Part shown: positions 7,764-42,036 of the stretch, one piece after another | Position numbering within the stretch: the first letter of the stretch is position 1 | How the letters are laid out: every line of letters begins with the position of its first letter | Source of the DNA: Saccharothrix espanaensis DSM 44229 | Lineage (GTDB): Bacteria > Actinomycetota > Actinomycetes > Mycobacteriales > Pseudonocardiaceae | Length of the DNA stretch: 64,000 nt | Direction of reading: 5' to 3' | Assembly (NCBI RefSeq): GCF_000328705.1 | Contig: NC_019673.1 | Coordinates: 930,001-994,000, forward strand | Made by a program: the position numbers and the translations under genes | Notes under the pieces: model-generated | Database searches by the model: none | Told to the model about the DNA's origin: nothing | What the model saw: the letters and a program-made list of their open reading frames with translations, nothing else

Positions 7764-8720
7764 TCAGCCGGTGTAGCCGGCCACGAGCTTGGTGAAGTCG
7801 TACGTGCCCTGGTTGGTGCCGCTGCAATCGCTGCCGGACGCGCCGCAGTTGCCCTTGTCGCGGTTGGTGGCCCAGAACGTGAAGCGGGACAGGTGCTTGC
7901 TCGTCGCCCAGTCGCGGATCGCGCGGAACTGGGCGGTGGTCACCGTCTCGCCGGTGTCGGTGATCCCGTTCATCGAGGACAGCCCGCTGCGCCGGTACGC
8001 GGCGTCGTCGGTGAGCCCGAACGTGGCCTTCACGTGGTTCTTCAGCCCGTCCACAGCGGACTTCGTGCCCGCGACCAGGTCGCTGGGCCCGCCGAAGTTG
8101 AACGGCATCACCGCCCACACGTCGACCGGGACCGCGAGCTCCTTGGACTTGGTGACCAGCCGGGTGCCCCACGAGTTCAGCCCGGCCCGGTTGGTCGGCA
8201 TCGTGACCACGGTCCTGATCGCCGGGTTGCGCTGCTTCACGATCTTCAGCGCGCCGAGGATCCGGTCCTGCACGGTCGCGTTCTCGAACTCGTCGGTGTT
8301 CTCGATGTCGATGTCGATCGCCTTGAGCTGGTAGGCGTCGATCACCTTCTGGTAGGCCGCCGCGAGCGCCGTCGCCGACGAACAGCGCGGGCCGAGCTTG
8401 GTGCCCGACCAGCCGCCGAACGACGGGATGACGTCGCCGCCGGCCGCACGGATGTTGCGGATCAGGGTGGCGTCCGCGCCGGTCAGGGGACGTTGGCCGT
8501 CCCAGGCCGGGTTGCACCCGCCATCCGAGAGGATGAAGGCGAGCGTGAACGCCTTCACGCCCGTCTGGTTCATCACGGTCACCGGGTTGGGTTTCGCGCC
8601 CCACTGGTACAGGTACGGGGACGCCAGGACGGGGTCCGGCGCGGCCTGGGCGGCGGGCGTCAGGGACATCGCCGCGAGGCCGGCCGTGAGGGTGATCATC
8701 AACCGCCGCAGGGGTTTCAT
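7764..8720 (-). CDS. Secreted GH18-type chitinase-like protein
   Basis: The 318-residue product begins with a signal peptide (MKPLRRLMITLTAGLAAM, cleavage probably after AQAA). The mature part looks like a GH18 TIM barrel: IDIDIE near residue 130 is the DxDxE catalytic signature, Glu being the proton donor, and SDGGCNPAW and PSFGGWSG are the early barrel strands. GH18 enzymes cleave chitin or related GlcNAc polymers, and some act only as binders. ATG 8720 has GGAGGAACG before it and was preferred to longer in-frame starts. There is no separate carbohydrate-binding domain. It is divergent from the adnA gene. Confidence 0.85.
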   Translation of the reverse strand: MKPLRRLMITLTAGLAAMSLTPAAQAAPDPVLASPYLYQWGAKPNPVTVMNQTGVKAFTLAFILSDGGCNPAWDGQRPLTGADATLIRNIRAAGGDVIPSFGGWSGTKLGPRCSSATALAAAYQKVIDAYQLKAIDIDIENTDEFENATVQDRILGALKIVKQRNPAIRTVVTMPTNRAGLNSWGTRLVTKSKELAVPVDVWAVMPFNFGGPSDLVAGTKSAVDGLKNHVKATFGLTDDAAYRRSGLSSMNGITDTGETVTTAQFRAIRDWATSKHLSRFTFWATNRDKGNCGASGSDCSGTNQGTYDFTKLVAGYTG

Positions 8721-8885
8721 CGTTCCTCCGGGACGCAGGGGAGCACGCTGCGGCGGCGGGGTGACGCGTGCGCGGGTCGTCCCCAACGTGGCCTGGACCA
8801 CTCGGATTTGTCAAGAGCCCATACGAAACGGCCGGTCACCCGGGCCCTCCCCGGCTCTGTCGTACCCCCGTGGTTCCATCGGGGC

Positions 8886-11800
8886 ATGGCAGTGAACAGG
8901 GCACCGTTGCTGGTGCGCCGGGTGCGGCAGGAGCGCCCCCGGCGTGACTGGAGCGCGCCCGCGCGGGCGGTGTTCGACCACCCGGGCGGGCCGCTGCGCG
9001 TGCTCGGCGGCCCCGGCACCGGCAAGACCACCCTGCTGGCCGAGGTCGCGGCCGACCGCATCCGACGCGGCGGGGCCGACCCGGAGAGCGTGCTCGTGCT
9101 CACCGCGAACCGGCGGGCCGCGGTCGCCATGCGCGCCCACATCACCCGCCTGCTGACCGACGAGGCCGAGGGCGAGGTGCTGCCCACCACCCAGGAGCCG
9201 CTGGTCCGCACCGTGCACTCGTACGCGTTCGCCGTGCTGCGCACCCGCGCCGTGCGGGAGGGCGAGCCGACACCCCGGCTGCTGGCCGGCCCCGAGCAGG
9301 ACGCGATGGTCCGCGAACTGCTCCTGGGCGACGTGGCCATGGGCGCGCCGAAGTGGCCGCAGCGGCTGCGCCCGGCCCTCCCGCTGCCCGGGTTCGCCCA
9401 AGAGCTGCGCGACCTGCTGCTGCGCGCCACCGAACGCGGCCTGGCCCCCGAAGACCTGGTCGAGCTCGGCCGCGCGCACGGCCGTGACGAGTGGGTGGCG
9501 GCGGGCCTGTTCGGCACCCAGTACGAGCAGGTCAACCTGCTGTCCGCGGCGGGCCAGGGCGCGGCCTCGTCCTACGACGCGGCCGAACTGGTCGGCAGCG
9601 CGCTGCTGGCGTTCGAGACCGAGGCCGACCTGCTGCACGCCGAACGCGTCCGGGTCCGCCACCTGCTCGTGGACGACGCCCAGCACCTCGACCCGTTGCA
9701 GCACGCGCTGCTGTCCGTCCTCGGGAGCGCGGCGCAGGAGTTCGTCCTGGCGGGCGACCCGGACCAGGCCGTGTTCTCCTTCCGCGGCGCGGACCCGGTC
9801 CTGCTGTCGGACACCGAAGGGCCGACGGTCGTGCTGCGCGAGGGCCACCGGATGACACCGGAGATCCGGGCCGCGGTCGCCCGGCTGGCCGGTCGGCTGC
9901 CCGGCGCGTCGCCGACCCGTGAACCCACCCCGGCCGACGGCACCGGCTCCGTGCAGGTCCGGCTGTTCGCATCGGGCGCGCAGGAGGCGAGCTGGGTCGC
10001 CGACCAGCTGCGCCGCGCCCACCTGATCGACGAGGTGCCCTGGTCGGAGATGGCCGTGGTCGCCCGCTCGGCCAGCCGCTCGCTGCCCGTGCTGCAACGG
10101 GCGCTGCTCGCGGCGGGCGTGCCGGTCGCCGTCCCGCGTGACGAGCTGCCGCTGGCCCGACAACCCGCCGTGGCCCCGTTCCTGGCCCTGCTGCGCTGCG
10201 CCGCCACCCCCGGCAGCCTGGACGAGGACACCGCCGCGATGCTGTTGGCGTCCCCGCTGGGCGGCGCCGACCCGCTGGCGCTGCGCCGGCTGCGGCGCGG
10301 CCTGCGCCGGCTGGAGATGGCCGCCGGCGGCGACCGGCCCAGCGGCGAGCTGCTGGTCGAGGTGATCGAGTCGGACGACCGGCTGGCCGCGCTGGAGGAC
10401 GCCGAGGCCCAACCCGCCCGGCGGATCGCCGGCCTGCTGCGCAAGGCCCGGCGCGGCATCACCGACGGGCACAGCGTCGAGCAGGTGCTGTGGGAGCTGT
10501 GGCAGAGCACCGGGCTGCAGAACCGCTGGGTCGCCCAGTCGTCGCGGCACGGCACGTCCGGGATGCAGGCCGACCGCGACCTGGACGCGATCGTCGGGCT
10601 GTTCGAGTCGGCGGCGAAGTACGTCGACCGGCTGCCCGGCGCGGGCGCGGACGGCTTCGCCGACTACCTGGCCGCCCAGCAGATCGTCGGCGACACGCTC
10701 GCCGCGTCCGCCCCGGTCGGCGAGGCCGTGGCGGTGCTGACCGCGCACTCCGCGGCCGGCCGCGAGTGGACCGTGGTGGCCGTGCCCGGCGTGCAGGAGG
10801 GCAGCTGGCCCGACCTGCGGCTGCGCGGGTCGCTGCTGGGCGTGGAGCGGCTGGTCGACGTGGTGGCCGGCGTCGGCGAGCAGGTCTCGGCCATCGCCCC
10901 GCTGCTCGCCGAGGAACGCCGGCTGCTCTTGGTCGCGGCCAGCCGGGCCCGGCGCTCCCTGCTGGTCAGCGCGGTGCGCGGCGAGGACGAGCAGCCGTCC
11001 CGGTTCCTCGACGAGCTGGAGGAACTCGCCACCGACCAGCCCGAGCGCCCCACCTACACCCCCGAACGCGGCCTGGTGCTGGCCGAGCTGGTCGGCGAGC
11101 TGCGCCGGGTGGTGTGCGACGGGGAGGAGACCGAGGACCGCCGGAACAGGGCCGCCGCCCAGCTCGCCCGGCTCGCCGCCCAGGGCGTGCCGGGGGCGCA
11201 CCCCGACTCCTGGTACGGCCTGGCCGACGTGACCTCGCAGGACCCGCTGTGGACCGAGGAGCACACGGTCAGCGTGTCGCCGTCCACGGTCGAGGTGCTG
11301 GCCAAGTGCCCGGTGCGCTGGGTGGTCGAGCGGCACGGCGGCCAGGACCCGGCCGAACTCGCCTCCATCACCGGCACCCTCGTGCACGCCCTCGCCCAGG
11401 CCGCCGCGTCCGGCGCCGACGAGAAGGAACTGCGCACCAAGCTCGCCGAGGCGTGGTCCGCCGTCGACGCCGGCGCGCCGTGGTTCTCCCGCCGCGAGCG
11501 GATCCGGGTGGAGCGGATGCTCGACACGTTCCTGAACTGGCTGACCGCCAGCCGCGACCAGCTCACCCAGGTCGCGGTCGAGGAGGAGATCTCGGTCGAG
11601 GTGCCCAAGCAGGAGGGCGGCCCCTGGCTGCGGGTCAAGGGCCGCGTCGACCGGCTGGAGACCGACCGCGACGGCCGCCCGGTCGTGATCGACCTCAAGA
11701 CCGGCAAGTCCCCGGTGACCAAGGAAGAGGCCCGCCAACACCCGCAGCTCGCGGTCTACCAGCTGGCGTCCGCGCTCGGCGGCTTCACCCACCTGGGCCT

Positions 11801-32230: not shown

Positions 32231-33409
32231 GTGCAGCGCAGGCTGACCGTGCGGGACCTGCGAGCCGGCAACCGGGCGCGAGTGTTGCGCACGCTGTACT
32301 TCGACCAGCCGCGCAGCCGGCAGGAGTTGGCCGTCGCGACCGGGCTCAGCCAGGCGTCGGTGAGCACCGTCGTCGGCGAGTTGCTCGCCGAGGGGCTCGT
32401 GGTCGAGGCCGGGCAGGTCGAGTCCGACGGTGGACGGCCGCGCGTGCTGCTGCGGGTGAACCCCGGGTTCGCCGCGGTGGTCGGGGTGGACGTCGGCGAG
32501 ACGCACGTGCTGGTCGAGGTGTTCGACCTGACGCTGGAGCGGCTGGCCGAGTCGAGGTCGCCGGTGCCGGCCGGCGGGTGTTCGCCCGACGAGGTCGCGC
32601 GGCTCGTGCTCGCCGGGCTGGACCGGTGCCTGGCCGCGTCCGGGGTGACCGACGTGCTCGGGGTCGGCGTCGGGGTGCCGGGGCTGGTCGAGGACGGGCT
32701 GGTCTACGCGCAGACCGTCGGCTGGCACGCGGCCCCGCTGGAACGGCTGCTGCGCGCCGGCACCGGGCTGCCGCTGTTCCTGGACAACGGGGCCAACACG
32801 CTCGGGCAGGCCGAGTCGTGGTTCGGGGCCGGGCGGGGCGTGCCGGACGTCGTGGTCGCGCTGATCGGCTCCGGGGTGGGTGCGAGCGTGATCCTGGGCG
32901 GAGTGCCGTACCGGGGCGCGTCGGGTGGTGCGGGGGAGTGGGGGCACACGACCGTCGCGCTCGACGGGCGGCCGTGCCGCTGCGGAGCCGCCGGGTGTCT
33001 GGAGGCGTATCTCGGTGCGGCCGGAATCGTGCAGCGGTACCGGGAACTCGACCCGTCCGTGCCGGACGACGAGGAGGCCGCGTTGCGTGCGCTGGTGGCG
33101 GACGATTCGACTGGCGCGGCGGCGATTCTGGCGGCGACCGCGCGGTTCGCCGGGTTGGGGATCGGCAACTTGATCAACCTGGTCAACCCGGCCGCGGTGG
33201 TGCTCGGCGGGTGGGCCGGGCTGGTGCTCGGCGAGCGGCTGCTCGGCCCGATCCGGCGGGAAGCGGCGCGGCACGCGTTGCACCGGCCGTTCGAGCAGGT
33301 GTCGATCGGGCTGTGCGAACTCGGCCCCGAGTCGGTCGCGCTCGGGGCCGCCACGCTGCCGGTGGCCGCGTTGCTGGAGTCCGGCGGGGTGCGCCGCCGG
33401 ACCGGGTAG
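32231..33409 (+). CDS. ROK family transcriptional regulator/sugar kinase-like protein
   Basis: A 392-residue ROK protein with an N-terminal winged helix-turn-helix (residues ~16-57, including ELAVATGLSQASVSTVV), so a regulator rather than a simple kinase. The ROK domain has the ATP-binding DVGETH region, EWGH at the expected catalytic/signature place and the structural zinc cluster C249xC251x4C256. It probably represses sugar uptake or catabolism genes and senses a sugar or its phosphate. No transport or sugar gene is adjacent. GTG 32231 follows a GGAGGAG-like ribosome binding site. It converges on the Wadjet operon with an 85-base gap. Confidence 0.92.
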   Translation: MQRRLTVRDLRAGNRARVLRTLYFDQPRSRQELAVATGLSQASVSTVVGELLAEGLVVEAGQVESDGGRPRVLLRVNPGFAAVVGVDVGETHVLVEVFDLTLERLAESRSPVPAGGCSPDEVARLVLAGLDRCLAASGVTDVLGVGVGVPGLVEDGLVYAQTVGWHAAPLERLLRAGTGLPLFLDNGANTLGQAESWFGAGRGVPDVVVALIGSGVGASVILGGVPYRGASGGAGEWGHTTVALDGRPCRCGAAGCLEAYLGAAGIVQRYRELDPSVPDDEEAALRALVADDSTGAAAILAATARFAGLGIGNLINLVNPAAVVLGGWAGLVLGERLLGPIRREAARHALHRPFEQVSIGLCELGPESVALGAATLPVAALLESGGVRRRTG

Positions 33410-33494
33410 TGCCGCGTCGGGACTCCGGGTTGGTGTGGTCGCGAGCCGGGTAGCGCCGGATCGGGAGTGCGGGTGGGGTGACGACGTGTCGGTG

Positions 33495-36400
33495 TTACGG
33501 GTCGATGCGGTCGAGGGCTGCGCCGTCCCACGTGGTCTGGGTGCACGCGACGCCGCGGCCGTTCTTGGGCCGCAGCACGTCGTAGATGTGCATCCGGGGG
33601 ATCTTGTCCGACACGCCCCAGCCGCTCGGCCAGGTGATCACCCAGTCCATGTCGAGGTCCACCAGCAGGCCGAGCATCCGGGCGATGGTCGGGTCGTCGA
33701 GCCGCTCGAACGCCTCGTCCAGCAGCACCAGCCGCAACGGCGAGAACTCGCCGCTGACCGCGTCGTAGAACGACGCCGCCGCCGCGAACAGCGTCACGTA
33801 CGAGATGAGCCGCGTCTCGCCGGACGAGAGCTGCCGCAGCCGTCGCTCCCGGGGGTTGCCGTCCGGGCCGGTGTCGGCGACGGTCACGGTGAACTGGTGC
33901 CACGTCCGGTAGTCCAGCGCACGGGACAGGATCTCCGCGTAGCTGCCGGAGTGCGAGTCGCGTTCGGCCTCGATGCGCTCGGTGAACACGCGGCGCAGCA
34001 ACGCGTCCTGCTCCGGGTCGCGGTCCGCGTACGGCAGGCGCACCAGCGCCAGCGCGTCGCGCGTCTCCTCCTCCAGCGCCGCCGACGGCTTCCACGCCAG
34101 CTTCACGTGCACGCCCTGGCTGGACCGCGCCCGCCCGAGCACCTCGTTCATCCGCTTGCACAGGTCCTCGGCGACGGCGATCTGGCCGCGCAGCCACTCG
34201 GCGAGGTCGCGGATCAGGTAGTCGGCGAAGATGTTCTGGTAGCGCTCGTCGAGGAACCCCCGCTGCTCGGCCAGCTTCGTGGTCACCTGGCGGGTGGCGA
34301 CGGCGACCGGGCGCGCGCCGTCCTCGCCGGTCACGGTCACGGTCAGCAGGCCCTCGTGCTGCTCGGCGGCGATGTCGTGGCTGCCCGCGAGGGACGTCTG
34401 CAACGCCTGGAGCTTGGTGATCACGGTCGCCTCGCCCGCGCCGCGCCGGTCGGCCGCGGCCAGGGCGGCGCGCACCGACTCGACGTCCTCCGGCACGTCC
34501 GGCAGGGCCGCGACCAGCACACCGGGTGCCTGGACGGTGGCCTTGAACTGCTCGACCGCCCGCGTCCGCGCGTCCTGCGCCGAAGCCAACTGCTCGCCGG
34601 CGGCGTCGAGCTGGGCGGACAGCTTCGCGGCCTGCTCCCGGGCCGTGGCGACGCGTTCCCGGACGCCCTTGAGCTCGTCGCGCATCTCGCGCCGGGACCG
34701 TTCGGCGGCGGAGAGCTGGTCGGCGATCTCCCGCGCCTCGCCGCCGATCGCGTCGGTCAGCTCGGCCAACGTGCCCGCCTGGGTCGCGTAGTCCACGCAC
34801 CGGGCCTCGGCGTCGGCCTCGGCGGCGACCCGGTCGGCCACGGCCGCGTGGTAGCGGTGGGCGGCGTCGGTGAGGTCGGTGACGGTCGACTGGCACTGGC
34901 GGCGCAGCACGTCGCCGAGCCGGTCGGCGGTGCGCTGGGCCTCGGCGGCGGCGCTCTGCGCCTGGCGCAGGCCCTCGGTGGTGGCGGGCAGGCCCGCGTC
35001 CCCGGCCTGCCGCACGACCTCGCCCTGCGCCGCTTCGCCGCGGGACTGGGCGGTGTCGAGTTCGGCGCGCAGCTCTTCGGCGCGTTTCGCGGCCCGGTCG
35101 GCGGATTCCTGCGCGGCTTGCAGCCGGCCGTGCTTGGCGACGAGCTCGCGGTCGGCGGGGAACCGGTCGAGGTGATTTTCCCACTGGTCGACCAGGCCGT
35201 GCGCGGCGGCCAGCTCGGTCTCGGCCTCGCCGAGTTCGGTGCGCAGGGCGGCGAGTTCGTCCTCCAGCTCGGCGATCCGCCGGCGACGGGCCGCCTCCCG
35301 CGCGCCCGCGCCGATGAACTCGGCCGCGTCCTTGCGCCACGCGCCGGTCAGCACGCCCGCACGCCATCCGCCGTCCGGCGTCACGGCGAACGTGCCTGGT
35401 TCGAGGGTGGATGAGGCTGGTGCTGTGGAGGGCGTGCGTTCGGCGAGGGACACCGATGCCAAAAGTGCGGCGACGACGTCGGTGGGGACCGGTGAGCCCG
35501 GGTCGACCGCGGGCGTCAGCACGGAGGCGAGGGACGGTCCGGTGACCGGCTCGGCGGCGACCGCGAGCACGTCGGAGGAGGAAGAGGAAGGAGAGGGAGT
35601 AGTCGTGCCGGATGCGGTGACCCACGCGTCGAGCAGGCCGGACGCCTCCAGGGCCGCTTCCAGACCGGCCCGGCGGGTGTCGTCCACGTCGGGTTGGAAG
35701 TCGACCAGGCGGTAGAACGGCGAGCCGGCCGCCGGTTCGCGGCCGGCGAGGGCGTAGCGGCCCCGTTCGGGCACGCGGGCCGTTCCGGAGCGCAACGCCG
35801 CGAGTTCCGCGTCCAGCGCGTCGATCGCCCCGCGCAGGTCGCCTCGCCGCACGGTCACGCCGTGCGCGGCCTCGCGGGCGACGGCGACCAGCGGGCCGAC
35901 CCACTCGCGGGCGGCGGAGGTCAGCTTCCGCGCGGCCACCGGGTCGACCGACGCGGGCAGTTCCAGCGCGTTCTCCGGCCGGCCCGGCCCGGACTCCTGC
36001 CAGGACCGCACGTCGTCCAGCCAGGTCAGCGCGACCTCGGCGAGTTCCTGGGCCTCCTGGTTGCGCAGCGCGGAGGACTCGGTCGCCGCCTGCTGGGCGT
36101 CCCGCGCGGTCTGCCGCAGCGCGTCCACCTTGCGCTGCGCGGTCTCCAGCTCCTCGGCCTGCCGGTGCAGCGCCAACGCCAGCGCGCCGCGTTGCCGGGC
36201 CAGCGAGGCGATCTCGGTGGTGCGCGCGGCGGCCGGTTCCAGGTCGAGGTCGGACAGCGCGGGCGGCACCCGGCGGTCGATGGGCAGCGGTTCGGCTTCC
36301 GGGTCGGGCTTGGCGCGCACGGACTCGGTGCGCACCACCGCGTCGACCACGGCCACCCGCGGCACGTCCGGCGCGAGCGCCTCGGCCAACCCGGCCACCC

Positions 36401-37562
36401 GCAGGTGGTGGCGCAGCGGCTCGACCAGTTCCTCCGCCGTGCCCAGGTCGTCGGCGAGCCGGCGCAGCAGCCGCAGCACGCCGTCGACCGAGCCGTCCTC
36501 CTGCGAGCGCTGCTTGTTCGCCATGTCCAGCGCGGCGATCGCCGACGAGCGCTTCTCCGCGACCAGCTTCTCGCGGGTCTGGAGGTCTTGCAGGTCGCGG
36601 AACGCGGGCAGTTCCTTCAACGCGCCGATGGTCTCCTCGGCCTGCTGCTCACCGGCTTCCAACGAGGTCAGCGAGTGCTCGGCGGAGGCGCGCTCGGCCG
36701 CCGTCCCGGACAGCGCCGCGGCCAGCTTCGCCGACGAGCGCTCCAGCTTGCGCACCGCGTCCTCGGCCGCGCCGAGCCGGTCCGCCGACGAGCGCAGCCC
36801 ACCGAACGCGTAGTCCCCGTAGGTCTTGAGGAACGTGCCGAGCGCCGCGTCCGCCGACGACAGCCGGACGATGTTCTCCCGGATCGACTCCAGGTCGTCG
36901 AACGAGGTCGCGAGCTGCTCGACCATCGCCTGGTCCAACGGCGGCAGCGCGTCGGACAGGATCTGTTCCAGTTGCCCTTCCAGCACCTTCAGCCCGACGT
37001 CCGGGTTGCGCAGGGTGCGCTGGAGGTGCAGGAGGTCGCCGTAGCGCGCGCCCGGCACGCCGTACACGGTCTCGGCGATCTTCGCCCGGAACGCGGCTTC
37101 CTCCAGCACGCAGTCCGCGCCGATCAGGTCGCGCAGCTGGGCCGGGCCGAGCGGGGTGCGCTCCGCGCCGATGAGCTGGAGGCCGTGCCCCACGCGCGCG
37201 GACGTGACGAACCGCCACGAGTCGGTGATCGCCTGGGACGTCTTGGACGCCTTCACGCCCAGCCCGCACGTCAGGTGCTCGTCACCGCGCACCAGCTCCA
37301 CCCACGCGTACCCGATGCGGTTGGGGCCGCCGTCGTAGTCGTCCAGCATCAGCCGGCGCAGGCTGACCGTGTCGAAACCCTTCGACCCGACCTGGCGCAG
37401 GTCGCCGTCCAAGCACAGCGGCAGCAGCAGTTCCAGCGTGCGCGACTTGCCGGACCCATTGGTGCCCTGGAAGATCGCGCGGCCACCGGAGAAGTCGAAC
37501 GTCTGCTCGGTGTACTGCCAGATGTTGACGATGCCGCCGCGGTGCAGCCGCCACCTGTTCAC
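33495..37562 (-). CDS. jetC: Wadjet type II JetC: SMC-like ATPase (TIGR02680 family)
   Basis: A 1355-residue SMC/MukB-like ATPase. Walker A GTNGSGKS is at residues 33-40, the ABC signature LSSGE near 1245, and Walker B LVLLDEAFERLD near 1278-1289. Long coiled-coil arms rich in Ala, Glu, Arg and Gln flank a central hinge-like region with a Ser-rich loop (SSSSSD) around residue 660. In Wadjet systems JetC with JetA and JetB extrudes DNA loops and recognises small circular DNA, which JetD then cuts. Start GTG 37562 overlaps the jetB stop by four bases. The gene is the last of the operon: only 85 bases follow before the convergent ROK gene, and no jetD is present. Confidence 0.92.
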   Translation of the reverse strand: MNRWRLHRGGIVNIWQYTEQTFDFSGGRAIFQGTNGSGKSRTLELLLPLCLDGDLRQVGSKGFDTVSLRRLMLDDYDGGPNRIGYAWVELVRGDEHLTCGLGVKASKTSQAITDSWRFVTSARVGHGLQLIGAERTPLGPAQLRDLIGADCVLEEAAFRAKIAETVYGVPGARYGDLLHLQRTLRNPDVGLKVLEGQLEQILSDALPPLDQAMVEQLATSFDDLESIRENIVRLSSADAALGTFLKTYGDYAFGGLRSSADRLGAAEDAVRKLERSSAKLAAALSGTAAERASAEHSLTSLEAGEQQAEETIGALKELPAFRDLQDLQTREKLVAEKRSSAIAALDMANKQRSQEDGSVDGVLRLLRRLADDLGTAEELVEPLRHHLRVAGLAEALAPDVPRVAVVDAVVRTESVRAKPDPEAEPLPIDRRVPPALSDLDLEPAAARTTEIASLARQRGALALALHRQAEELETAQRKVDALRQTARDAQQAATESSALRNQEAQELAEVALTWLDDVRSWQESGPGRPENALELPASVDPVAARKLTSAAREWVGPLVAVAREAAHGVTVRRGDLRGAIDALDAELAALRSGTARVPERGRYALAGREPAAGSPFYRLVDFQPDVDDTRRAGLEAALEASGLLDAWVTASGTTTPSPSSSSSDVLAVAAEPVTGPSLASVLTPAVDPGSPVPTDVVAALLASVSLAERTPSTAPASSTLEPGTFAVTPDGGWRAGVLTGAWRKDAAEFIGAGAREAARRRRIAELEDELAALRTELGEAETELAAAHGLVDQWENHLDRFPADRELVAKHGRLQAAQESADRAAKRAEELRAELDTAQSRGEAAQGEVVRQAGDAGLPATTEGLRQAQSAAAEAQRTADRLGDVLRRQCQSTVTDLTDAAHRYHAAVADRVAAEADAEARCVDYATQAGTLAELTDAIGGEAREIADQLSAAERSRREMRDELKGVRERVATAREQAAKLSAQLDAAGEQLASAQDARTRAVEQFKATVQAPGVLVAALPDVPEDVESVRAALAAADRRGAGEATVITKLQALQTSLAGSHDIAAEQHEGLLTVTVTGEDGARPVAVATRQVTTKLAEQRGFLDERYQNIFADYLIRDLAEWLRGQIAVAEDLCKRMNEVLGRARSSQGVHVKLAWKPSAALEEETRDALALVRLPYADRDPEQDALLRRVFTERIEAERDSHSGSYAEILSRALDYRTWHQFTVTVADTGPDGNPRERRLRQLSSGETRLISYVTLFAAAASFYDAVSGEFSPLRLVLLDEAFERLDDPTIARMLGLLVDLDMDWVITWPSGWGVSDKIPRMHIYDVLRPKNGRGVACTQTTWDGAALDRIDP

Positions 37563-38797
37563 ACGTTCTCCTCGTCCTGCGGGACACCCGCGCCCGGTCG
37601 GCCGTGGCGTGCGGGAACAGCGTCGCGCGCCCCGTCCTCCGGGGTATCGAAAAGCGACCAGCCCGGCACCTCAGGGGTGACCGGCGGTTGCTCCACTTCA
37701 CGTTCCGGGTCGCCGTCCGGCTCCGGTATCCAGCGGTGCGCGGCGGCGTTGAGCTGCCAGCCGCCGTCGGTGGGCACGGCCAAGCCCATGCGCCGCAACA
37801 GTTCCAGCACTTCGTCGGCCAAACGTTCCCGGTCGTCGGTGAACTGCTTGGACCACGCCGCCGGGTAGTCCTCGACCAGCCGTCCGCACAGCTCGACCAG
37901 TGCGGCGCGGTCCACGGGGTGCCTGCCCGAGACGGGTTCGCCGGACAGCAGTTCGGGCAGGGCCAACAGCGCGATCCGCGCCACGGTGGACGTGCCGGGG
38001 AAGTACAGGTCGGTCAGGTAGTCCTCGGGGTCGGCCGTCAGCACGCCCTCCGCGCGGGACTCGGTGCGCAGCCCGAACGACGTCTCCAGCGAAGCCGACT
38101 CCCGGCGCTGGTTGCGCCGCAGCCACTCGGACTGCTCGGCGGGCAGGTCGGCGTGCAGCACCACGGGGTTCTCCACGAGCTTGCGCCGCACCGCGTGCTC
38201 CACACCGCGCGGGCCGGGCCGGTTCGCCAGCTCCACCAGCCGTCGCGGCGACGTCGCCTCGGCCACCGGGCCGGTCAGCAACTGCCCGAGCAGGTCGGTG
38301 TCCACGGTGATCAGCGCCTCGGTCTGCATGTCGACGGTGCCCTCGGTCTCGTGCAGCACCCCCAACGACACCAGGTGCCGCAGGGCCGCGGTCAACGCGC
38401 GCCGGTCGACCACGTCGTCCACGACCTCGATGCCCGCCTCCGCGGCGGCCGCGCGGATGTCGGAGACCAGCCGGGACAGCAGGGTCTGCCGCCCGATCCC
38501 GGTCAGCACGGCCATGGTCAGCGCCACGTACGCGTACCCGCGCGGCGACATGCCCAGCACGCCCCGCGAGTCGTCCGCGCCGGGACCGGCCTTGTAGAGG
38601 CGGGCGTAGCGGCGTTCCACCACCAGGCGGTAGCCGAGTTGGCGGGCGAACAGGTCCTGGAGCGCGAACCGGTGCCGGTACACCAGGGTCAGCAGCTCGC
38701 CGTCCGGCCCGTCGGCGCGCAGCAGCGGCCGGCGCAGCAGGGTGCGGGCGCAGCGCACGACGTTCGCGGCGTCGATGTCGGAGAGGTCGTCGAACAT
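37559..38797 (-). CDS. jetB: Wadjet type II JetB: DUF2398 (TIGR02678) family
   Basis: This 412-residue protein corresponds to DUF2398/TIGR02678, the MukE-like (KITE) subunit of type II Wadjet complexes. It starts at ATG 38797, sharing one base with the jetA stop (TGATG), and is built of winged-helix modules: RCARTLLRRPLLRADGPDG at the N-terminus, the RLYK segment near residue 67, and a central HLVSLGVLHETEG wing. The C-terminal ~70 residues are acidic and Pro-rich. Together with JetA it would bridge the JetC heads. Longer in-frame starts reach into jetA and are not needed. The family assignment is from overall pattern and operon order. Confidence 0.88.
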   Translation of the reverse strand: MFDDLSDIDAANVVRCARTLLRRPLLRADGPDGELLTLVYRHRFALQDLFARQLGYRLVVERRYARLYKAGPGADDSRGVLGMSPRGYAYVALTMAVLTGIGRQTLLSRLVSDIRAAAAEAGIEVVDDVVDRRALTAALRHLVSLGVLHETEGTVDMQTEALITVDTDLLGQLLTGPVAEATSPRRLVELANRPGPRGVEHAVRRKLVENPVVLHADLPAEQSEWLRRNQRRESASLETSFGLRTESRAEGVLTADPEDYLTDLYFPGTSTVARIALLALPELLSGEPVSGRHPVDRAALVELCGRLVEDYPAAWSKQFTDDRERLADEVLELLRRMGLAVPTDGGWQLNAAAHRWIPEPDGDPEREVEQPPVTPEVPGWSLFDTPEDGARDAVPARHGRPGAGVPQDEENV

Positions 38798-40275
38798 CAG
38801 TCGAGCACCAGCGTCGAGTCGTGCAGCGTCAACGTGCCCGCGTGCGAGTGGATCTGCGTGGAATGGCCGGCTTCGTGCGCGACGGTGACGCGCAGGCCGC
38901 GCACCGGGTCGGTCGCCGAGCCCGCGTCGGCGGCGGTGTCGCGTTGCGCCATCGCGAGCGTCAACAGCTCGCACAGCACGCCCAACGCCTCGCCGGACAG
39001 CGTCGTGGTGGACAGGCACGGCGCGGCGGCGGCGAGTTCGGCGACCGACGCGGCCCGCCGCTCGTCGGCGTCCCGCGCTTCGGCCAGCAGCGACTGCTCG
39101 GTCATCGGGTCGTCGAGGATGCGTGACGTCCGGCCGCGCGCGCCCCGGTCGCTGCGGCTGCGGACGCTCACCGACACCTCGTGCACCGGGCCGTCACGCC
39201 ACGACGTGCGCTCGTTGTCGCTGTCGTGCTCCGGCGCGGGGGAGAGGTGGCGCGCCGAGTACAGCCCGAACGCCGCCGCGTACAGCTCGTGCGCCTGCGA
39301 CCGGGTGCCGCCGTCGAACCACGCCGCGAGCTTGAGCAGCTCGGCGCGCCGGCCGGGCAGCAGGCCGCCGCCGGACGTGGCCCGCTTCACACTGGCCAGC
39401 AACGACCCGATCGCGCGGGCCGTCGCGTCGCGCAACGCCGTCACCTGGCTGGGGCGGCCGGTCCGGTCCACGAACCAGTCGGTCAGCTCCTGCCAGTCCT
39501 CCGCCGACCGCCCGCGCGCCCGTTCGACCCGGTCGCCGAGGTCGGCGCGGCCCAGCAGGCGCAGCAGCTCGGTGCGGGCGGCGTTGAGCCCCGCCAGCGC
39601 GTCGGCTATCGCGGGGGTGTGCCGCAGCACGTCCTCCACGACCATCTGGATGTACTCGACCAGCAGGTTGCGGAACCCGGAGATCTCCTCGGGCGCGAGG
39701 TGGTGGCGGGTCACCACCTGGCCCAGGTAGGCGTAGAAGTCGCGGACCGTCGCGGCCAGCTCGGCGTGCTGGAGGAACAGCGTCGTCACCTGCTCGGCGA
39801 GCACCTCGCGCGGGCGCTTCGCCTCGCTGAGCAGCGCCTCGGACAGCGACCGGCCCAGCTGCCCGAGGCCGCGCTCCACGGCGGGCAGCAGCTCGCGCGA
39901 CACCTCGCGGGCACCCTCCGGGACGCGCAGCAGCTCGTCCACGTCCCGCTGCACCCGGACCGCCAGCTTCGAGACCTGGTAGCGGACGCTGCCGTGCTGG
40001 AACTCGGCGATGCTCGACGCCACCACCTCGCGCCGGCCCTGCACCAGGTTGCCCCACTCGACCAGCTGCCGCAGCCGGTTGATCACGTTCTCGATGCGCG
40101 ACTCGCCCGGTTCCACCCGGCCCTCGCGCTCCGCGCCGGCCAGCGCGCCCGCGACCTCGCCCGCCGACAGGTCGGCCAGCAGGGTCGACGTGAACAGCCG
40201 CATGATCGCCAGGTAGGTGCGCTGGTGATCGCGCGCGTCCAGGTACGCGTAGAGCTTCAGGCGGGCCGGTTCCAC
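38797..40275 (-). CDS. jetA: Wadjet type II JetA: DUF2397 (TIGR02677) family
   Basis: A 492-residue kleisin-like subunit of the DUF2397/TIGR02677 family, first gene of the operon. The N-terminal winged-helix part (LKLYAYLDARDHQRTYLAIM) and the conserved EFQHGSVRYQVS segment near residue 100 are followed by a long helical body. In Wadjet complexes JetA links the two JetC heads and binds JetB. GTG 40275 is chosen because VEPARLKLYAYL matches the expected beginning; another GTG (40284) lies nine bases upstream. The divergent cobD gene begins only 51 bases away, so operon and cobD share a short promoter region. Confidence 0.88.
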   Translation of the reverse strand: MEPARLKLYAYLDARDHQRTYLAIMRLFTSTLLADLSAGEVAGALAGAEREGRVEPGESRIENVINRLRQLVEWGNLVQGRREVVASSIAEFQHGSVRYQVSKLAVRVQRDVDELLRVPEGAREVSRELLPAVERGLGQLGRSLSEALLSEAKRPREVLAEQVTTLFLQHAELAATVRDFYAYLGQVVTRHHLAPEEISGFRNLLVEYIQMVVEDVLRHTPAIADALAGLNAARTELLRLLGRADLGDRVERARGRSAEDWQELTDWFVDRTGRPSQVTALRDATARAIGSLLASVKRATSGGGLLPGRRAELLKLAAWFDGGTRSQAHELYAAAFGLYSARHLSPAPEHDSDNERTSWRDGPVHEVSVSVRSRSDRGARGRTSRILDDPMTEQSLLAEARDADERRAASVAELAAAAPCLSTTTLSGEALGVLCELLTLAMAQRDTAADAGSATDPVRGLRVTVAHEAGHSTQIHSHAGTLTLHDSTLVLD

Positions 40276-40325: not shown

Positions 40326-41288
40326 GTGAGCGTGGGACGCGCGGTCGGGTTGTTGCTGGGCGTGGCCGCCGACGCGGTGTTCGGTGACCCGAGGAAGTAT
40401 CACCCGGTAGCGGGATTCGGGCGGGTTGCCGCGGCGGTGGAGCGCAAGGTCTACCGCGACCACCGGGCGGCGGGCGCCGTGCACACCGCGACCCTGGTCG
40501 GCGGGACCGTGCTGGCCGGGATGGCGGTGGAGCACGTCGGGCGCAAGCACCCGGTGTTCCAGGCGCTGACCACGGCCGCCGCGACGTGGGTCGTGCTCGG
40601 CGGGTCGTCGCTGGCCGACGAGGGCACCGCGATGGGCCGTGAACTCGACGGCGGGGACCTGGGCGCCGCGCGGCTGCGGCTGCCGAACCTGTGCGGCCGC
40701 GAACCGGCCCGGCTGGACACCATGGGCCTGGCCAAGGCGACCGTCGAGTCGGTGGCGGAGAACACCTCGGACGCGGTCGTCGCGCCGCTGTTCTGGGGCG
40801 CGGTCGCCGGCGTGCCGGGCCTGCTGGGCTACCGCGCGGCGAACACCCTGGACGCGATGGTCGGCCACCGCAACGCCCGCTACCAGCGGTTCGGCTGGGC
40901 TGCGGCCCGGCTCGACGACCTCGCCAACCTGGTGCCGGCCCGGCTCGCGGCACTGCTCACGGCGGCCGGCGCGCCGGTCGTGGGCGGCTCGTCCGGCGAG
41001 GCGTGGAAGACCTGGCGGCGCGACGCGGCGGCCCACCCCAGCCCGAACGCGGGACAGGTGGAGGCGGCGTTCGCGGGCGCGCTGGAGATCCGGCTGGGCG
41101 GGCGGACGGTGTACTCGCACGGCGCGGAGGACCGGCCGGTGCTCGGCCACGGCCGCCAGCCCGACGCGGGGCACGTGACCCGCGCGGTGGAGCTGTCCCG
41201 GGTGGTCGGCGCGTCGGCCGCGGTGATCACCTCGGTGTTGGCGCTGCTTCATCCTCGGCGAGCATCTCGGCGACCGACTTCCGCTTGA
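40326..41288 (+). CDS. cobD: Adenosylcobinamide-phosphate synthase CobD/CbiB
   Basis: This 320-residue integral membrane enzyme has the N-terminal signature DAVFGDPRKYHPVAGFGR, the central ENTSDAVVAPLFWG and the loop GYRAANTLDAMVGHRN that define CobD/CbiB. It joins (R)-1-aminopropan-2-ol (phosphate) to adenosylcobyric acid, giving adenosylcobinamide (phosphate). Several membrane spans are present. A CobC-like threonine-phosphate decarboxylase homologue and a histidine-phosphatase domain lie 6-10 kb downstream in the same conserved block. The 3' end overlaps the convergent SURF1 gene by 62 bases. Start GTG 40326. No cobalamin riboswitch was found in the short upstream gap. Confidence 0.95.
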   Translation: MSVGRAVGLLLGVAADAVFGDPRKYHPVAGFGRVAAAVERKVYRDHRAAGAVHTATLVGGTVLAGMAVEHVGRKHPVFQALTTAAATWVVLGGSSLADEGTAMGRELDGGDLGAARLRLPNLCGREPARLDTMGLAKATVESVAENTSDAVVAPLFWGAVAGVPGLLGYRAANTLDAMVGHRNARYQRFGWAAARLDDLANLVPARLAALLTAAGAPVVGGSSGEAWKTWRRDAAAHPSPNAGQVEAAFAGALEIRLGGRTVYSHGAEDRPVLGHGRQPDAGHVTRAVELSRVVGASAAVITSVLALLHPRRASRRPTSA

Positions 41289-42036
41289 CCTTCGGCCCGT
41301 CGGTCCGCTCTTCGGCCAGCGCGCCGCCGGGGCGGGCCTCGCGGACGGTGAAGTACAGCCAGCCGGCCAGCGCCATCGCGCCGAACGCGATCCACTGCAA
41401 CGCGTAGGAGAAGAACGGGCCGGCGTCCAGCTTCGGCAGCGGCAGCGCCTCCTCGACGCCCGGCTGACCCTCGGTGAGCTGGAAGTAGCCGGGCCGGATG
41501 TCCAGTCCCGAAGCCCGGCCCACCACCGCCGAGTTGATCGCGTACACCTCGCGGTGGCCGTCGCGCTCGATCGCGTCGCGGTTGTCGTTCTCGCCGGTGC
41601 GCACCCACGCGACCAGCGTGACCGTGCCGTCCGGGAGGGGCTTGAGGGTCGGCACCTTCAGGCCGTTCACCGGGCGCACGTAACCCCGGTCGACCAGCAC
41701 GGTCTGGCCGCTCTCCAGCGCGAACGGGGTCAGCACCTCGGAGGCGGCCTCGCCCTGGACGGTGCGCAGCCGTGCGACGGCCTGGCCCTCGGGCAGGTAG
41801 CGGCCCGTCATCGTGACCCGACGCCACTCGTTGTCGGCGTTGGGGCGGTCGAGGATCTGGGTGACCGGGACCGGGCCGGTGCGCACGGAGGTCGTGACGG
41901 CGTCGTTCTGCGCGTCGCGTTCGGAGTCGCGGGTGAACTGCCACGGGGCGAGCAGCGCGAAGCACGCGCCCGCGAACACCCAGACCGCCAGCGTCAACGC
42001 CAGCCAACCCGGCCGCAACAGGAAGCTCAACCGCAC
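41227..42036 (-). CDS. SURF1 family protein (cytochrome oxidase assembly)
   Basis: The 269-residue protein has the SURF1 layout: an N-terminal membrane span (LALTLAVWVFAGACFALLAPWQF; LGxWQ-like motif present as APWQFTRD), a large external domain containing WRRVTMTGRYLP and VLVDRGYVRP, and a C-terminal span (YALQWIAFGAMALAGWLYF). SURF1 helps insert haem a into subunit I of aa3-type cytochrome c oxidase. In mycobacteria a SURF1 gene also stands beside cobD (Rv2235/Rv2236c as I recall). A basic/acidic tail of ~30 residues follows the second span. ATG 42036. Confidence 0.92.
   Translation of the reverse strand: MRLSFLLRPGWLALTLAVWVFAGACFALLAPWQFTRDSERDAQNDAVTTSVRTGPVPVTQILDRPNADNEWRRVTMTGRYLPEGQAVARLRTVQGEAASEVLTPFALESGQTVLVDRGYVRPVNGLKVPTLKPLPDGTVTLVAWVRTGENDNRDAIERDGHREVYAINSAVVGRASGLDIRPGYFQLTEGQPGVEEALPLPKLDAGPFFSYALQWIAFGAMALAGWLYFTVREARPGGALAEERTDGPKVKRKSVAEMLAEDEAAPTPR

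Follow-up and report, generated by a model that had tools for sequence, protein, structure and literature searches.

What becomes of a Wadjet system that has no nuclease beside it? The question is raised by a jetA-jetB-jetC operon without jetD in Saccharothrix espanaensis DSM 44229, lying in a stretch of 64,000 nucleotides (NC_019673.1, positions 930,001 to 994,000; hereafter the window, in whose own numbering the operon is described). In type I systems, JetABC recognises circular DNA by extruding it, and JetD makes the cut (PMC10586767, PMC12287153). With moderate confidence, we consider the window operon to encode a type II Wadjet structural maintenance of chromosomes (SMC) complex that shed its nuclease and has been retained at its locus for a non-cutting job. 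The phenomenon is larger than an earlier reading of this sequence (the original prediction) had described, as the Wadjet nuclease has been repeatedly lost, inactivated or replaced in the family, not in one strain.

The original prediction had described three complete, overlapping genes in the order A-B-C, intact ATPase motifs in JetC and, in place of jetD, only 85 bases before a convergent ROK gene, all of which was borne out. The jetB start and jetA stop overlap by 1 base and jetC and jetB by 4 bases, and PADLOC matches of JetA, JetB and JetC are nearly full length and all of type II, the best type I model reaching 59 bits on JetC versus 1249.5 bits for JetC2. JetA2, JetB2 and JetC2 are thereby found together in a single operon, as in type II Wadjet. 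Among NCBIfam models, TIGR02680 and TIGR02678 exceed their cut-offs, while TIGR02677 scores 143.8 bits, below its cut-off of 165.85. JetC keeps its Walker A (GTNGSGKS), signature (LSSGE) and Walker B (LVLLDEA) motifs intact. The operon has no JetD, the DUF3323 plus DUF2399 toprim nuclease of type II: a JetD profile search across the whole window gave zero matches, and no substitute nuclease or other candidate effector was found beside the operon.

Could JetD be encoded elsewhere in the genome, as the original prediction had allowed while counting such a gene against its own reading? S. espanaensis DSM 44229 has a circular chromosome of 9,360,653 bases, with no plasmid detected (PMC3469384). 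A genome-wide search does find DUF2399 and JetD_C genes, but both sit in two other Wadjet loci. The sole DUF2399 protein (C1:1066777-1068036), with toprim Glu and DxD present, belongs to a complete second type II operon of order jetD-jetA-jetB-jetC (C1:1066777-1074898), about 100 kb from the window operon and with a JetC 32% identical to the window JetC. The JetD_C protein near C1:2.17 Mb is JetD3 (409.7 bits), adjoining a JetC3 of 1485 aa that scores 1964 bits (C1:2165492-2171066); judged from this JetC/JetD pair, the part of the locus examined, it is a type III Wadjet. A profile built from 18 type II JetDs found no further type II JetD in the genome. The window operon is therefore one of three Wadjet loci seen in S. 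espanaensis, and the only one without an adjoining JetD. The genome also encodes a canonical SMC.

To what extent is the missing jetD peculiar to this strain? With the C-terminal 305 residues of JetC as query (E 1e-40), 156 of 297 family genomes gave a match, including 25/25 of the same-genus genomes listed; among the 141 genomes without a match, the 20 shown begin with other genera. Besides the window genome, 155 genomes matched jetC; we classified JetD in 107 of them, the 48 left out being mostly from genera with many members. The loci were not chosen by JetD, which was sought only in the 4.9 kb downstream of jetC; jetA and jetB were checked in 11 of the census genomes and in the loci of the named-genome set, and some genomes were counted twice under different handles (for example G060/G106, G089/G109 and G008/G117). 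Across 100 loci, 58 had no JetD within 4.9 kb, 17 a catalytically dead JetD, 16 an intact one, six the N-terminal half only and three a JetD N-terminal domain joined to TIR. Adding seven loci and the window gives 108 rows (none, 59; intact, 23; dead, 17; N-terminal half, 6; TIR, 3).

Within the genus, 22 of 25 genomes have no JetD within this distance, three have JetD-TIR and none has a toprim JetD. A strain-specific jetD deletion was rejected on this census, the absence being genus-wide. The original prediction had set its reading against a simple deletion from a locus where relatives carry jetD; relatives do carry jetD here, but the loss is genus-wide and loss or inactivation of JetD is recurrent across the family. 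On the JetC tree of the 108 rows, which is built on 305 aa and has many weak forks, JetD changes state at least 11 times. The dead state alone needs at least three changes (starred branches), and JetDs reduced to their N-terminal half make up two groups. Two dead JetDs (L241, L242) are nested in an otherwise intact group; conversely, not every member of the Actinokineospora-like group has an inactivated JetD, since L223 and L224 keep theirs intact. Many times over and independently, JetD has been inactivated, shortened, exchanged or lost, with the SMC part preserved.

The residues involved suggest how JetD was disabled. By JetD profile, JetD is present downstream of jetC in Lentzea, Actinokineospora and other genera. 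Among 33 JetDs of relatives' loci that retain the toprim half, 31 have lost the toprim Glu, which is replaced by R or H in 23 Lentzea-type JetDs (including one whose record carries the label Nocardia) and in one from Umezawaea, and by Q, S or T in seven from Actinokineospora. The second Asp of DxD is also lost in all 23 Lentzea-type JetDs. Of the 33, all three toprim residues are kept only in Halosaccharopolyspora and Actinopolyspora (L074, L075), and two Umezawaea loci hold the N-terminal half alone. In a control set, 29/29 JetDs are intact, a set of best DUF2399 scores and hence biased to intact JetD. In Corynebacterium glutamicum, the substitutions E236A and D279A drastically impair the nuclease MksG (PMC10123090), and from the shared toprim motif we infer that the residues lost in dead JetDs correspond to E236 and D279. 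The dN/dS (ratio of non-synonymous to synonymous substitution) of dead JetDs is well below 1 (0.17-0.44, 5 pairs). With JetD as the profile, the PDB yielded chance matches only. Two loci show other rearrangements: in L221 (G136; 882-2714), a JetD without the toprim Glu has a long low-complexity insertion between its halves, and in Actinokineospora inagensis (L070; 14094-15185) jetD stands on the opposite strand to jetC, inverted in place.

Whole genomes were also searched for JetD. The JetD profile matched nowhere in eight of 37 genomes, three of which (G112, G126 and G125) do encode a JetD_C protein, a weak one in one case. JetD_C is missing as well from 19 of 28 handles that were selected for having no intact DUF2399 (a few being the same genome twice), and seven of these 19 are single-contig genomes: G021, matching Actinosynnema mirum, G059, G023, G027, G043, G076 and G086. 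Each of the seven has jetA, jetB and jetC beside cobD, their frames open throughout the matched part, with no JetD within 4.9 kb, no DUF2399 and no JetD_C by either Pfam toprim model. JetABC is therefore kept in nature where no Jet nuclease can be recognised; JetD-less genomes may still hold one from an unrecognised family.

The genes that remain appear to be maintained by selection. We calculated dN/dS by Nei-Gojobori, which gives approximate values under high-GC codon bias. Across 12 pairs from JetD-less lineages (one including a TIR carrier), dN/dS was 0.044-0.179 for JetA, 0.048-0.344 for JetB and 0.060-0.287 for JetC; two flanking genes (0.052-0.260) and three pairs with intact JetD (0.069-0.316) gave similar values. 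The jetB pair L064/L073 and cobD of two L125 pairs were dropped, as the BLAST stretch ran past a stop near the end; the NudC-like gene lacks a value in some pairs, and JetC of the L057 pairs covers 683 codons. Judged from these ratios, purifying selection acts on JetA, JetB and JetC also where JetD is missing. Of 75 JetCs, 70 have the complete set of Walker A, signature and Walker B motifs, the other five being contig-edge fragments.

In three relatives the nuclease half has been exchanged. The original prediction had suggested that another nuclease might substitute for JetD; the window operon has no substitute, but a TIR-domain substitute is carried by three relatives. In Saccharothrix S26 and NRRL B-16314, a single open frame downstream of jetC joins the JetD N-terminal domain (DUF3323) to a TIR in place of toprim, with domain scores for PF11796 and PF13676 of 87.3 and 84.3 bits (L043) and 84.7 and 87.5 bits (L013); the third copy, in G088, was identified by profile only. 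JetD-TIR occurs in 3/297 family genomes, all of the same genus, and stands between jetC and the ROK gene. It forms a module of about 1.2 kb that is missing in a close relative (L156 vs L148; L149 vs L153), and in the pair L165/L164 the relative has MerR and oxidoreductase genes where JetD-TIR stands. Its dN/dS is 0.236 (one pair). The solved structures closest to its TIR are 3h16, a TIR protein that we take to be from Paracoccus (118.8 bits), and the NAD+ hydrolase AbTIR (113.8 bits). In the alignment with AbTIR, the Glu within the WTKQE motif of the fusion falls on a Glu that is presumably catalytic. These matches suggest that JetD-TIR may be an NAD+ hydrolase-like effector. In the AlphaFold model the N-terminal domain is good and the TIR part poor, with blocks mostly <60. 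The window genome has no JetD-TIR match at E 1e-30, and none of 396 genomes of the wider phylum matched at E 1e-36, in a set without a positive control. Plasmid carriage of JetD-TIR was rejected, as 0/324 matching plasmid records cover 80% of the query. A literature search by title, with subscription papers and bioRxiv mostly outside its scope, returned no report of a JetD-TIR fusion or of a JetD-less type II Wadjet.

Genes for JetD also occur alone. Lone Lentzea-type jetD genes, with the catalytic Glu lost, were seen at L106 (5756-6760), L107 (5862-6866), L108 (6380-7384) and L109 (6121-7125), in four unrelated neighbourhoods of four Saccharothrix species. Over about 1.05 kb (the gene and some 20 bases) they are 92-97% identical, and from this pattern the lone jetD looks as if it is mobile as a single gene. 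Three contigs of one Saccharothrix genome (L128, L129 and L130 of G120) begin within copies of the same lone jetD, suggesting that this genome has two or more of them. The dN/dS of lone JetDs is well below 1 (0.21 and 0.30, 2 pairs). Saccharothrix deserti has a JetD N-terminal fragment, a 96-aa frame apart from its jetABC locus (L131; G102 C8:341706-341954).

The surroundings of the operon (Table 1) are conserved across the 68 loci compared, the window and 67 from named genomes, the latter among the best 80 of 109 stretches matching a pattern. Besides the clusters tabulated, a NudC-like gene and an M16 peptidase gene each occur in 52/68 loci. In 7/8 loci of other genera, chosen for high JetD score from the control set described above, an A-B-C-D operon with intact JetD adjoins the same cobD. 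In the JetABC tree the sequences cluster by genus, a pattern that vertical inheritance would produce and that suggests it; a few record labels (Nocardia, Rhodococcus, Actinosynnema) fall within other genera. A conserved replacement gene beside jetC was considered and rejected, as the genes between jetC and jetD or ROK differ among lineages and include MerR and oxidoreductase, DinB/TetR-like and other genes (names judged from sequence). At the eighth of the high-scoring loci of other genera (L120, G035; 8310-10571), a jetD with intact catalytic residues lies beside cobD, and jetA, jetB and jetC were not found in the surrounding 20 kb.

Table 1 Features of the window operon and its flanks, in window positions.
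Feature	Position	Strand	Evidence and remarks
jetA (type II kleisin, DUF2397)	38797..40275	minus	492 aa, GTG start; PADLOC JetA2 668 bits
jetB (type II KITE subunit, DUF2398)	37559..38797	minus	412 aa, ATG start; PADLOC JetB2 400 bits
jetC (type II SMC ATPase)	33495..37562	minus	1355 aa, GTG start; PADLOC JetC2 1249.5 bits; TIGR02680 736.7 bits
85-base gap from jetC stop to ROK gene	33410..33494	no strand	jetD site in many relatives, whether intact, dead, truncated or fused to TIR; no jetD match in the window
ROK-family gene, convergent	32231..33409	plus	Pfam ROK 159 bits; same cluster in 14/68 loci including the window; outside the system
cobD (CobD/CbiB), divergent from jetA	40437..41288	plus	Pfam CobD_Cbib 319.6 bits on a longer frame from 40326; cluster in 60/68 loci
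SURF1-family gene	41227..42036	minus	Pfam SURF1 116.6 bits; cluster in 64/68 loci

How else might a JetABC without JetD be explained? The window complex could act as the shape sensor of an anti-plasmid or anti-phage system whose response is delivered by a protein encoded elsewhere. JetD-TIR at the same position in three genomes of the genus, with its low dN/dS, and the lone JetD genes of four Saccharothrix species speak for such exchangeable or unlinked effectors, but none is seen beside the window operon, where the jetC-adjacent genes vary among lineages, the lone JetDs are also without catalytic residues, and the window genome has no JetD-TIR match at the threshold used; we therefore think this explanation doubtful. 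The complex could instead borrow JetD from the second type II operon, or from the type III locus, and still cut plasmids. The genome does hold a DUF2399 JetD with intact Glu and DxD, as well as JetD3. That DUF2399 JetD, however, heads its own complete D-A-B-C operon, whose JetC is only distantly similar to that of the window, the seven single-contig relatives have neither DUF2399 nor JetD_C, and 19 of the 28 handles without an intact DUF2399 are without JetD_C too; we hold complementation in trans to be distinctly unlikely.

Partial defence systems are common, and with JetD absent the operon could also be a decaying, useless leftover of defence. One case speaks for it: the JetC of Kutzneria sp. 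744 is split into two gene calls (L067, one of the 70 with all motifs) and has an open frame of only 838 aa (G194). However, JetD is absent from most of the genus and from other whole groups, all 70 JetCs free of contig-edge cuts have their ATPase motifs, and purifying selection on JetABC is about as strong as on its neighbour genes. The relic reading was rejected on dN/dS, and we hold it to be very improbable.

A nuclease-free type II Wadjet with a non-cutting task, one of three options in the original prediction, is the best supported of them, but its function is one that we infer, the condensin-like activity being drawn by analogy from SMC biology. JetABC would remain an SMC dimer that extrudes loops at the expense of ATP and, with JetD gone, would compact or organise DNA, probably the chromosome, in the manner proposed for Pseudomonas MksBEF; it may also serve as a non-cutting brake on plasmids. 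We favour a nuclease-free loop extruder because of the analogy to published type I systems and MksBEF. Several observations weigh against it. Nine of the 28 JetABC genomes without intact DUF2399 do carry a JetD_C protein, and the JetDs of the two other S. espanaensis Wadjets could act in trans. C. glutamicum MksBEFG, which retains its nuclease, does not fold the chromosome (PMC7083940). A canonical SMC is present in S. espanaensis, so there is no gap to fill. In the three TIR-carrying genomes, the effector paired with JetABC would be a TIR joined to the JetD N-terminal domain, and DNA sensing there may lead to NAD+ loss, not cleavage.

The window operon is probably best named, by analogy, a nuclease-free, vertically inherited, MksBEF-like derivative of type II Wadjet. 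With type II JetABCD it shares JetA2, JetB2 and JetC2 and the same gene order, and it is orthologous to loci ending in an intact JetD; it differs in having no JetD, and JetD is dead, reduced to its N-terminal half, TIR-fused or not found in the searched stretch in 82/107 other loci, including two in otherwise intact groups. Pseudomonas MksBEF is a nuclease-less Wadjet relative (PMC10586767), and the window operon has the same kind of conserved gene set (SMC, kleisin, KITE, no nuclease). Its sequence family is another, however: the JetC1 models, which stood in for MksB, fall far below JetC2 on the window JetC, and the window complex is of another Wadjet type, of independent origin and actinobacterial, with graded intermediates still visible. 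MukBEF likewise has subunits resembling JetABC, no nuclease and a speculated defence ancestry (PMC10586767), but a housekeeping function is not established for the window complex, whose genome also holds canonical SMC. Lamassu, with variable LmuA effectors including TIR, combines an SMC-like sensor with an exchangeable effector (PMC10586767), comparable to the relatives' JetD-TIR; it differs in its protein families (from the review and general knowledge), whereas here TIR replaces toprim on the JetD N-domain in a type II Wadjet locus.

A published review proposes that MksBEF, and likely MukBEF, arose from Wadjet-type plasmid defence, MksBEF through loss of JetD (PMC10586767). In this family, the stages of such loss (intact, catalytically dead, truncated, TIR-swapped and absent) are found at a single locus, which makes the idea of a Wadjet origin experimentally testable with natural pairs of close relatives. 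Repeated loss of the nuclease with the motor kept suggests that a defence system became, or also serves as, something else. We tentatively propose, while giving it less than even credence, that type II Wadjet of Pseudonocardiaceae is under repeated parallel conversion to a nuclease-free housekeeping SMC complex and, in one lineage, to a TIR-armed sensor; JetABC would then be a modular sensor of DNA geometry whose output is cutting (toprim), NAD+ depletion (TIR), a non-catalytic JetD subunit, or extrusion alone. If this is true, the states standing side by side at one locus would render the origin of MksBEF and MukBEF from defence directly testable. We regard the swap of TIR for toprim as the most novel element of these findings, and JetD-TIR would constitute a Wadjet whose response is not DNA cutting. 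A jetABC annotated as a defence system need not mean plasmid cutting.

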